Assembly (NCBI GenBank): GCA_934589145.1
Contig: CAKTNW010000008.1
Span: 5,952-69,951, forward strand
Length of the DNA: 64,000 nt
DNA from: an uncultured Oscillospiraceae bacterium
GTDB taxonomy: Bacteria; Bacillota; Clostridia; Oscillospirales; Oscillospiraceae
Reading direction: 5' to 3'
A program made the position numbers and the translations under genes. Below, one piece after another: positions 26,003-60,043 of the stretch (positions within the stretch are counted from its first letter, which is position 1; each line of letters opens with the position of its first letter). The notes below the pieces were generated by a model. That model made no database searches. It had not been told where the DNA came from and worked only from the letters and a program-made list of their open reading frames with translations.

Positions 26003-26603
26003 GGGGAGGTTTCGCGCACCGGCGCGACCTACTTTTGAACTGTTGCGGTGCCCAAAATTTCGTTGCGGCATTAAAGCCGCCGAAATTTTGACCGCTGCCA
26101 CTCGCTCACCTCGCTTCATCTGCCACTGGCAGCGCTCGGATTGCTCCCAACAGTGACAAAAGTAGGCAAAAGCACCGGAAGGAACCTCCGGTTCCTTCAC
26201 TTCCGGGCGCGCTATGTGTTGTGCAGATTTGCTGCTGTGACAACTCAAGTTTTGCGGTGGAAATCTAGATGGATGCTACGGCGGCATAGCCGCCGAGATC
26301 GGAGGCTAAAAACATGCCACCGGCATGTTTTCTTAACGCCCCGACGTCGCTGCCGCTAATGCTTACGCCAAACAACGCTTTATCGTCTACCGCTGCAACG
26401 ATGAGCGGCAGCGGCGCAAGACGAAGGTCAATGCGTCATACGAAACGACAACAACCATGTCCCGCGAGCGCGTGGTAAAAGGCGGTAAATGTGTACACGG
26501 CATAGCGTGCGCGGATTCTTAAACCGCAGGTTTAAGCAGCGTTTTTGGGTACTTTTGCCGCTGTGGGCAAAAGTACCTCGTCCCCGAGGGGACGAAACAC
26601 CTC
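26003..26603. repeat. Composite structured repeat with inverted arms, copy 1
   Basis: No gene is seen in 26001-26722. The left arm starts GGGGAGGTTTCG and the right arm ends CGAAACACCTC. Both arms carry the same hairpin series. Left arm: CCTACTTTTG/CAAAAGTAGG (26028-26037 / 26157-26166, split by another repeat) and GAAGGAACC/GGTTCCTTC (26178-26198). Right arm, read in reverse: GTACTTTTGCC/GGCAAAAGTAC (26549-26576) and CTTAAACC/GGTTTAAG (26518-26536). A second composite lies at 46801-47470. Stem sequences differ between arms but pairing is kept. Confidence 0.7.
26042..26151 (+). repeat. 110-bp nested repeat (family C), copy 1
   Basis: The element starts GTTGCGGTGCCCAAAATTT and ends in TGGCAGCGC...CTCCCAAC. 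It sits inside the CCTACTTTTG/CAAAAGTAGG hairpin of the composite repeat. Internal pairing AAAATTTC/GAAATTTT and CTGCCA/TGGCAG is kept in the copies at 54073 and 57494. Confidence 0.75.
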
Positions 26604-45164: not shown

Positions 45165-45250
45165 GGCGGGGTGTGGTCACCCCGCCCTACGCATATCTGC
45201 AAAGCCGATTTGTAGGGCGGCATGACTACATGCCGCCGCCGTATAGGGGT
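45165..45250. repeat. GTAGGG hairpin repeats inside the phage block
   Basis: GGCGGGGTG / CACCCCGCCCTAC and GTAGGGCGGCATG / CATGCCGCC fill the 135-base gap between the capsid gene and the next gene. They are of the same kind as in chromosomal spacers. Confidence 0.8.
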
Positions 45251-46800: not shown

Positions 46801-47470
46801 AGGGGGCATTTCGCCCTCCAGGGCGACCTACTTTTGCCAATAGCGGCAAAAGTAGGCAAAAGCGCCAGAAGGAACCTCCGGTTCCTTCACTTCCGGGCAC
46901 GCTATGGTTTGTACGAAATGGTAAGTGCCTGCCACGCGTTCGCGGGACATGGCCGTTATCGTTACGGATGACGCATTGACTTTCTTCCTGCGCCGCTGCC
47001 GCTGATGCGCATCAACGGTGGGGAAGAAATCGTTGTACGGCGGGCCGATGAGGGCATCGGCCCCTACGGAATGTCGTCGTACCGCTTCGTAGGGCGGGGT
47101 GACCACACCCCGCCGCCCACCGCTGCACCGGCTCCCTGTTCCCGCCCGTAGGGGCGGATGACCCTGTCCGCCCACACAATAGGCGCACAATGTCCTTCTC
47201 CGTACCGCATCAGCGGCAGCGGCGCAGGAGCAGAGACGATTCGATCATAATGCGATAACGGAGATCCTGCGTGAACGTGTGGTACATGGTCACAAAATTC
47301 AAAAACGGTATAGCGCGCAAGGAAGTGAAGAAACCATGGGTTTCTTCTGGCTCTTTTGGTTACTTTTCCAGCTGTTGGGAAAAGTAACCCGCCGGAGGCC
47401 GTCTCCGCCGCCGGAGGCCGTCTCCGCCGCCGGAGGCCGTTTCCGCCCCGGAGGGCGAAACACCCCCCTC
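46801..47470. repeat. Composite structured repeat with inverted arms, copy 2
   Basis: The ends are GGGGGCATTTCGCCCTCC and GGAGGGCGAAACACCCCC. Left-arm hairpins: CCTACTTTTGCC/GGCAAAAGTAGG (46827-46856) and GAAGGAACC/GGTTCCTTC (46868-46888). Right-arm hairpins, in reverse: GGTTACTTTTCC/GGAAAAGTAACC (47358-47389) and GAAGAAACC/GGTTTCTTC (47327-47347). The middle contains GTAGGG hairpins (47035-47190). It lies between the scaffold stop and the capsid gene. Confidence 0.7.
47391..47452. repeat. Three tandem copies of a 20-bp unit
   Basis: CCGCCGGAGGCCGTCTCCG occurs three times in a row with one C/T difference in the last copy. Each unit is itself partly palindromic. It lies in the right arm of the composite repeat. 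Confidence 0.8.
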
Positions 47471-52251: not shown

Positions 52252-52284
52252 CCGTAGGGCGGCATGACCACATGCCGCCGCCCA
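52252..52284. repeat. GTAGGG hairpin between ecfA1 and ecfA2
   Basis: GTAGGGCGGCATG, loop ACCA, CATGCCGCC. It is an uninterrupted copy of the hairpin that is split by a 110-bp repeat at 57476-57615. Confidence 0.85.
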
Positions 52285-54043: not shown

Positions 54044-54420
54044 AAACCCTCCGTAGGGGGCGGCGTGCTCCTGTTGCGGTGCCCAAAATTTCTGCGCTGC
54101 CTTACGGCGGACGCTTGAAATTTTGACCGCAGCCACTCGTTCGCCGTGCTTCATCTGCCGCTGGCAGCGCACGGCTCTCTCCCCGCCGTTTGCCGGATAA
54201 TGTACGTTGAATGTGCGTAGGGGCGGGGCTCTGCCCCGCCCACCGATACATCGCTGTACCACCGGCGGGCGGGGTAGAACCCCGCCCCTACACCCGACCA
54301 CCGGCGCCCCTACGCATCGACTGTCGATAGAACTTCCGTAGGGCGGGGCCCGTGTGCCCCGCCGTCCGGTATGCGGCGGTTTATCACGCGGCGGGACACA
54401 CGGGTTCCGCCCTACGACAT
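54044..54420. repeat. Dense GTAGGG hairpins between ecfT and truA
   Basis: The 437-base gap has no gene. It holds at least four palindromes (near 54051, 54220-54290, 54340-54420). One, GTAGGGGGCGGCG...CGCCG, surrounds the 110-bp repeat at 54073-54184. Confidence 0.75.
54073..54184 (+). repeat. 110-bp nested repeat (family C), copy 2
   Basis: It starts GTTGCGGTGCCCAAAATTTC and ends CTGGCAGCGCACGGCTCTC. It is very similar to the copy at 57494 and less so in the middle to that at 26042. It sits between the arms of a GTAGGGGGCGGCG-type hairpin. Confidence 0.75.
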
Positions 54421-57244: not shown

Positions 57245-57640
57245 TCGTTGTAGGGGGCGGCGTCCCCGACGCCCCGTCGTTTACCGCAAATGCCGTCGTA
57301 TACCGTGCGGGCCGTCGAGGACGCCGGCCCCTACGGACGATGATAAGAGCCCGTTGCGTGATATGGCGGGCCGATGTGGGCATCGGCCCCTACGGATTTC
57401 TACCGATGGTGCGCCGCATTTACGGCGGCGGGGTGAGGTCACCCCGCCCTACGACCCAACCGACGACACCCTTCCGTAGGGCGGCATGATCCTGGTGCGG
57501 TGCCCAAAATTTCTGCGCTGCCTTACGGCGGGCGCTTGAAATTTTGACCGCTGCCACTCGTTCGCCGTGCTTCATCTGCCACTGGCAGCGCACGGCTTTC
57601 TCCCCACATGCCGCCGCGCAATCATGCAAACCCCACCCGA
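57245..57640. repeat. Dense GTAGGG hairpins before the clpE-like gene
   Basis: The 497-base gap 57210-57706 has no gene. Palindromes include GTAGGGGGCGGCGTC / GACGCCCC, GGGCCGATG / CATCGGCCCCTAC, GGCGGGGTG-type / CACCCCGCCCTAC, and GTAGGGCGGCATG / CATGCCGCC, which is split by the 110-bp repeat. Confidence 0.8.
57494..57605 (+). repeat. 110-bp nested repeat (family C), copy 3
   Basis: It runs from GGTGCGGTGCCCAAAATTTC to CACGGCTTTCTCCCC. The outer hairpin arms GGCGGCATG (57480-57488) and CATGCCGCC (57607-57615) flank it. The undisturbed form of that hairpin, with loop ACCA, is at 52258-52279. Confidence 0.85.

Positions 57641-57706: not shown

Positions 57707-60043
<2,337 letters not shown>

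Follow-up and report, generated by a model that had tools for sequence, protein, structure and literature searches.

IS1397 and IS621 insert in REP palindromes. Rickettsia palindromic elements, Bcr1, NEMIS and ERIC are palindromic and non-coding, and the double-hairpin elements of fungi are small mobile hairpin elements. Insertion in REP palindromes is described for ISPsy8, ISPa11, ISPpu9/10 and ISRm19/22 (as recounted in PMC1525189), and in A. variabilis, T. roseum and H. neapolitanus longer palindromes harbour inserted REP dimers (PMC3733652). The latter account also treats Rickettsia palindromic elements, MITEs such as Bcr1, NEMIS and ERIC as short dispersed elements (PMC3733652). In yeast mitochondria, palindromic GC clusters are small and mobile, have the target motif AG and undergo palindrome mergers, the cluster described there being 42 nt long (PMC4478555). 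REPs as targets, nested palindromes and mobile yeast GC clusters are thus already in print (PMC1525189, PMC3733652, PMC4478555). In the portions of the open-licence literature available to us, we found no paper naming an element like the one described here or a preference for tRNA D-loops.

The window, that is, the whole stretch of DNA analysed, comprises 64,000 nucleotides from an uncultured Oscillospiraceae bacterium. An earlier note on this DNA had described a repeat of about 110 bp (its family C) at three places, each within a hairpin loop, and had pointed to empty forms of two of these hairpins nearby. The repeat, which we call element E, is present at all three places, and both empty hairpins were found. 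The features of E are read on the minus strand. The copies below were scored with covariance model R1, and the arms and empty hairpins were read from the sequence.

26028 to 26037, plus strand: left arm CCTACTTTTG of the hairpin hosting copy 1
26041 to 26150, minus strand: element E, copy 1 (113.3 bits)
26157 to 26166, plus strand: right arm CAAAAGTAGG of the hairpin hosting copy 1
about 46827 to 46856, plus strand: empty CCTACTTTTG/CAAAAGTAGG hairpin
52258 to 52279, plus strand: empty REP hairpin GGCGGCATG-ACCA-CATGCCGCC, with the loop ACCA
54053 to 54065, plus strand: GTAG-tagged REP arm GTAGGGGGCGGCG to the left of copy 2
54072 to 54185, minus strand: element E, copy 2 (124.6 bits)
57480 to 57488, plus strand: left arm GGCGGCATG of the REP hairpin hosting copy 3
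57493 to 57606, minus strand: element E, copy 3 (124.1 bits, E = 3.1e-32)
57607 to 57615, plus strand: right arm CATGCCGCC of the REP hairpin hosting copy 3

The three copies are 110-114 bp long, share one orientation and all lie between the larger ORFs of the window, as judged from the ORF list. A 23-base core of E occurs three times in the window with at most three mismatches and in none of 100 window shuffles; for a 16-base piece, three matches were reached by 1 of 100 shuffles. Copies 1 and 3 are enclosed by perfect arms, while the framing stem of copy 2 is weak, short and imperfect and its right side consists of CGCCG only. In a strict test, which demands a perfect stem of at least 7 bp with inner ends no more than 10 nt from E, two of the three window copies have an enclosing stem. 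The flank of the empty CCTACTTTTG hairpin matches positions 26147-26222 over 76 nt at 89%, and the GGCGGCATG/CATGCCGCC palindrome has additional window copies at 45212 and 20727. Folding of one filled site gave z = -5.5 as RNA and -3.6 as DNA.

Two observations concern the surroundings of copy 3. The ORF called from 57608 has its formal start inside the REP arm; a better in-frame start, behind GGAGG, lies at 57707 and is probably the true one. In genome G047, where an empty orthologous site of copy 3 was sought, a gene lies almost directly upstream of the clpC-like gene and there is no REP cluster.

On its sense strand, E is composed of GG, a hairpin P1, a linker (GTGGC or GGCGC), a second hairpin P2 and a tail (AACAGG or AAGAGG), its 3' end usually reading ...ACAGG or ...AGAGG. 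P1 has an outer stem with compensatory changes, an inner CYGCC/GGCRG hairpin and a conserved asymmetric loop, and some copies carry two normal pairs in place of its GA/GA step. P2 has a GCGGT/ACCGC foot with a GGG(C/T) bulge, followed by a freely varying stem. The ends, GG.. and ..CAGG, are by eye not inverted repeats, and both hairpins are subterminal. In copy 3 they were placed by hand-counted coordinates as follows.

57564 to 57596, minus strand: hairpin P1, a covarying stem with an inner CTGCC/GGCAG hairpin and a conserved asymmetric internal loop (covariation on alignments A2 and A5)
57497 to 57551, minus strand: hairpin P2, a GCGGT/ACCGC foot, a CAAAATTTC/GAAATTTTG stem and a variable tip (fold and covariation)

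The internal pairings noticed earlier, CAAAATTTC/GAAATTTTG and CTGCC/GGCAG, are real and belong to two covarying hairpins. P2 was invariant on the first alignment because the search pattern had fixed it, at least in part. Alignment A5 comprises 77 matches (73 of the rows distinct) at loci detected by covariance model R2 and was aligned to the model's own structure. Pairing in A5 extends to 96.9% of cells, and 19 of its 24 pairs show changes on both sides; both-side-change cells number 338, compared with a shuffled mean of 93 and at most 71 when partners were slid. In a descriptive comparison, whose cells are not independent, G.T pairs make up 15 of 1651 standard pairs in E (0.9%) but 96 of 1181 (8.1%) in the acceptor and T stems of 103 distinct tRNAs from the fetched loci. 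A.C pairs in E number only 7. The strong covariation together with the few G.T pairs points to selection on folded DNA, and the low G.T and A.C counts argue that pairing is kept at the DNA level.

The initial search, with an exact gapped pattern, hit 16 stretches of Clostridia genomes and another 2 in IMG/VR contigs. Model R1 was built from 20 of the 21 first copies, the copy at locus L001 being left out, and R2 from 65 matches. Collecting copies with these models, as the earlier note had proposed, revealed a widespread family spread through gut Clostridia. Among 295 genomes sampled from the order to which G002, an Oscillospiraceae MAG, belongs, E was found in 100, and in a phylum sample it was found in 4 of 398 genomes, the query genome among the 4; both searches used stricter filters that lose weak matches. 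A search of 11 family members found it in 5, G047 having 22 matches, most of them divergent, and G016 having 14. On the replicon pMM35_01 of Vescimonas fastidiosa MM35 there are 37 matches; 24 belong to a subfamily of 114 bp and 13 to one of 106 bp. Across the family, E measures 106-124 bp. Rfam, at gathering and relaxed thresholds, returned no family for E in the window and 10 of the 18 first loci. We found no E in annotated phage records and no match for an empty phage site of locus L018.

For the site analysis we assembled 180 copies: 73 of the 84 matches of the first R1 set (3 duplicates and 8 weak opposite-strand matches were dropped), plus 31 and 76 of 77 (1 cut-off match dropped) from two later sets. 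The 60 fetched loci come from the upper part of the ranked order-search list rather than from a random draw, and the copies are not independent of each other. Of 134 copies, 61 have their closest relative at another locus of their own genome; in 17 of these 61 cases the target label differs, with 'no label' counted as a label. Two loci, L095 and L096, hold half elements consisting of P1 alone and ending in ACAGG.

Of the 24 main-subfamily copies on the Vescimonas replicon, 20 immediately follow TGG or TAG within the loop of a GGGCCGATG-type REP; the remaining 4 follow TGG in a CGTC-type REP (both by eye). On the 800 kb read, hairpins with exact GGGCCGATG-type arms are empty in 51 cases and filled in 12. 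A filled GGGCCGTCGGGG[E]ACGCCGGCCCC in G002 (L063) can be compared with the same sequence without E in G004, beside L016. In those REP cases that were read, the loop bearing GG is on the same strand as E. The strict test found enclosing stems in 14 of 24 copies of Vescimonas subfamily 1, 0 of 13 of subfamily 2 (106 bp) and 7 of 12 in G004. A general enclosing-hairpin test on 64 copies was weakly positive (mean -12.1 kcal/mol versus -11.1, sd 0.38, for permuted flanks), with at least 1 of 100 permutations lower than the real flanks. Hairpin loops as the target, which the earlier note had proposed, fit the window and the Vescimonas fastidiosa REP loops but are too narrow a description for the wider sample. 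Many copies outside palindromes had been named there as evidence to the contrary, and this was borne out in part: a strict stem encloses 13 of the 159 copies from sources other than the window, G004 and Vescimonas, compared with 61 of 5000 random positions of a relative's replicon. The description of E as short, non-coding and resembling elements that target REP palindromes stands.

The 106-bp subfamily (GGGGAAATCGGC...GGCACGACG) occupies 13 places in NZ_AP023416.1, for example 96490-96595 and 357388-357493. Several of them are flanked by a pair of inverted GTAG REPs, in a REP-E-REP-like arrangement rather than in a single loop.

In the wider sample, the commonest site is a partial tRNA gene copy, with E in the D-loop or anticodon arm. 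An intact tRNA lies within 500 bp of 94 of the 180 copies, on the same strand in 88 of the 94; the other 86 have none within 500 bp of the examined stretch, some of these loci ending close to E. The leading neighbours are tRNA-Ser(CGA) downstream (16 copies, 14 genomes), tRNA-Pro(TGG) downstream (11) and tRNA-Met upstream (11). A tRNA-like sequence was detected in at least one of two flank windows for 104 of 180 copies, at a score threshold reached by 11 of 400 single control windows. Where a sense tRNA left flank reaches E (n = 55), the junction falls in the D-loop in 39 cases, in the anticodon arm in 11 and elsewhere in 5. To the left of a further 30 copies lies an antisense tRNA piece; 18 of these also have a sense tRNA piece on the right, forming fold-back joints. 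In the loci read, the E-bearing tRNA sequences are mostly partial copies, not working genes, with an intact tRNA beside them; typically a 5' part precedes the intact gene or a 3' part follows it.

Other arrangements were also seen. At L203, within about 1-250 of the reversed locus, E sits near the variable arm and T stem of an almost complete tRNA-Ser(GCT) copy that lies directly upstream of the intact gene. Arrays of 2-3 truncated tRNA plus E units occur at L193, L157, L213, L214, L189 and L166, most of them beside an intact tRNA gene.

GG is found at the left end of E in 151 of 174 copies and directly to its right in 137 of 174. In the intact tRNA, GG stands at the junction in 44 of 55 cases, against a background of 36%, and is absent in 11. 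We tentatively favour, with somewhat less than even confidence, the reading that E is a non-autonomous mobile DNA element of two conserved hairpins, which enters loops usually 3' of GG and is moved in trans by a putative enzyme. E would be recognised as a folded single strand rather than via terminal inverted repeats, and would enter a structured target strand at an unpaired loop, in most cases immediately 3' of GG. Such GG sites would be supplied by the loops of REP palindromes and of tRNAs (the D-loop after GG and the Pro anticodon loop). The sequences themselves show the family, its covariation, where its junctions fall, the duplicated flanks and the strand bias; a single-stranded DNA substrate, an enzyme acting in trans and selection behind the duplications are inferences from them. 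Single-strand insertion 3' of GG is favoured because GG stands at the junctions, E lies on the GG-loop strand in the REP cases and the pairing is DNA-like. As evidence of mobility we count the 37 copies on one replicon, the nearest relatives within the same genome and a pgk-tpi region that is occupied in some genomes and E-free in others. The base after GG is often changed from T to A (by eye), which counts against this reading since a clean insertion would not alter it.

At L130 (G170 contig C13, 24-244), two E copies lie head to tail without a spacer, the second beginning right after the terminal GG of the first, as a GG rule would predict.

It is possible, though we think it unlikely, that E entered a REP loop or a tRNA copy only a few times and that the composite was then multiplied by REP dispersal or by tandem duplication of tRNA loci. 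The clustering of 20 of 24 main-subfamily Vescimonas copies in one REP type is consistent with such a history, as are the two or three tandem units at L193, L157, L213 and L214, which duplicate the flank too. However, E has three different hosts in the window, two of them clear palindromes, and 4 Vescimonas copies occupy the unrelated CGTC-type REP. Related copies of one genome also stand beside different tRNAs (L088/L085, 90%; L205/L210, 81%).

A duplication of the flank abuts E in 71 of 151 testable copies, compared with 0 of 275 control positions; the aligned duplications run from about 20 to more than 100 bp. Flank duplications are absent from all 3 window copies and 11 of 12 in G004 (present in 1), and present at 70 of 136 elsewhere; in Vescimonas, counted separately, they were seen in 3 of 37 copies and not in the other 34. 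The contrast between REP copies, mostly without duplications, and gene copies, which carry them, is in line with selection to keep an intact gene next to the insertion. Under the mobile-element reading, insertions in single-copy genes or tRNAs would survive only beside an intact copy and would therefore be seen with a duplicated flank. At pgk-tpi in G004, E lies between the intact pgk end and a second pgk 3' segment of about 77 bp; in G136, G040, G126, G082, G133 and G101 the pgk end is single and E is absent from this place. In G016, the pgk end carries its own divergent E, with a duplicated stretch of ~30 bp and 20 bp of filler (by eye, two contigs). The pgk-tpi gap of G047 (L242) holds an unrelated-looking insert with a short repeat of the pgk end, in which we found no R2 match and no E core.

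Flank duplications are not expected from simple single-strand transposition and count against our favoured reading; a staggered break or a template switch is a conceivable origin for them. Host DNA repair might even account for E as a whole, if a polymerase stalled at a GG-ended hairpin copied E up to its terminal GG and then switched back, often upstream or onto the other strand. The duplications at 71 of 151 copies, the filler bases between E and the duplicated flank, the GG at both ends of E and the snap-back hairpins adjoining E in tRNA-Ser cases (CGGGGC/GCCCCG) would all suit this proposal. It leaves unexplained, however, the order-wide compensatory change in the stems of E and the preference for D-loops, and we judge it distinctly unlikely.

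The tRNA loci bear on a further alternative, in which E acts as RNA, is inserted into loops of tRNA or REP transcripts, and the chimera is copied back into DNA near its source gene. The sense orientation in 88 of 94 copies, the junctions in tRNA loops and the 5'- or 3'-truncated tRNA copies with fold-backs are in keeping with this, but a G.U share of only 0.9% and a reverse transcriptase domain in only 12 of 25 E-rich genomes make it improbable. Less probable still is that E is immobile and serves as a cis-acting leader or trailer of tRNA operons: it does lie upstream of tRNA-Ser(CGA) on the same strand in 14 sampled genomes, sometimes in arrays, but for 86 of 180 copies no intact tRNA lies within 500 bp (some loci ending close to E), and REPs, the pgk-tpi region and two IMG/VR contigs also contain E. 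A self-splicing intron in tRNA was rejected, the E-bearing copies being mostly truncated with an intact tRNA adjacent in the loci read.

In search of a mobilising gene we compared 25 E-rich with 20 E-less genomes, 'E-less' meaning no match under the stricter order-search filters, so that weak copies may be missed. Y1_Tnp was detected in 13 of 25 versus 8 of 20, the MAGs being incomplete, RVT_1 in 12 of 25 versus 5 of 20, and the IS110 cut-off was passed in 2 of 25 versus 4 of 20 and in 0 of 1 Vescimonas record. None of the three showed a consistent link to E, and the IS110 and RAYT connections suggested earlier thus found no support in these genomes. Around the single Y1 gene of the Vescimonas record, which looks IS200-like, no GTAGGG palindrome was seen in the surrounding 3.4 kb, and no IS605-like guide pairing was seen by eye. 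The lack of a mobilising gene in these searches and the 0 of 13 strict stems in subfamily 2 count against the favoured reading. It is doubtful, if conceivable, that the target is read by shape, as GG-bearing single-stranded loops in tRNA-shaped DNA and REP hairpins, by a putative loop-specific trans enzyme other than a Y1, IS110 or reverse transcriptase protein.

If our reading holds, roughly one in three of the genomes sampled from a gut order would carry an unnamed structured element in partial tRNA copies, and E would mark tRNA D-loops as insertion sites. E would also account for the truncated tRNA copies that these genomes have alongside intact tRNA genes, and would offer a natural test of whether mobile DNA enters through the single-stranded hairpins of transcribed genes.

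We file E under the broad kind of small non-autonomous palindromic mobile elements and in none of the families tested. It shares subterminal hairpins without a terminal inverted repeat with IS200/IS605-derived (Y1) elements and RAYT-driven REPs, but the Y1 transposase did not follow its carriers. The terminal tag and single short hairpin of the GTAG/CGTC class of REPs were not found at the ends of alignment A2, nor were the inverted ends and short fixed target duplication of a MITE of a DDE transposon, and the hosts did not bear out the DEDD transposase of an IS110-type element. With the fungal mitochondrial double-hairpin element, E invites a works-like comparison only. Yeast GC clusters resemble E as small mobile hairpin elements with a short target motif and palindrome mergers, and differ in being mitochondrial, 42 nt long and, in the account available, without tRNA D-loop targeting (PMC4478555). 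The Rickettsia elements, Bcr1, NEMIS and ERIC are, like E, short, palindromic, dispersed and non-coding, but E lacks terminal inverted repeats and has loop-specific sites (PMC3733652, as far as described there). REP dimers and E both place a palindromic element inside another palindrome and are likened by arrangement, the REP being the guest in the dimer cases and the host for E (as presented in PMC3733652). REPs and REPINs with their RAYT transposases are, like E, short, palindromic and non-autonomous, with a possible single-strand mode; by the accounts given, E differs from them in having no GTAG tag and two dissimilar hairpins, and it nests inside GTAG REPs (PMC2817692, PMC3116915). The REP-targeting IS elements, as described, share with E the REP palindrome as target, but they are full insertion sequences, whereas E is a non-coding element of 106-124 bp that is also found in tRNA loops (PMC1525189).
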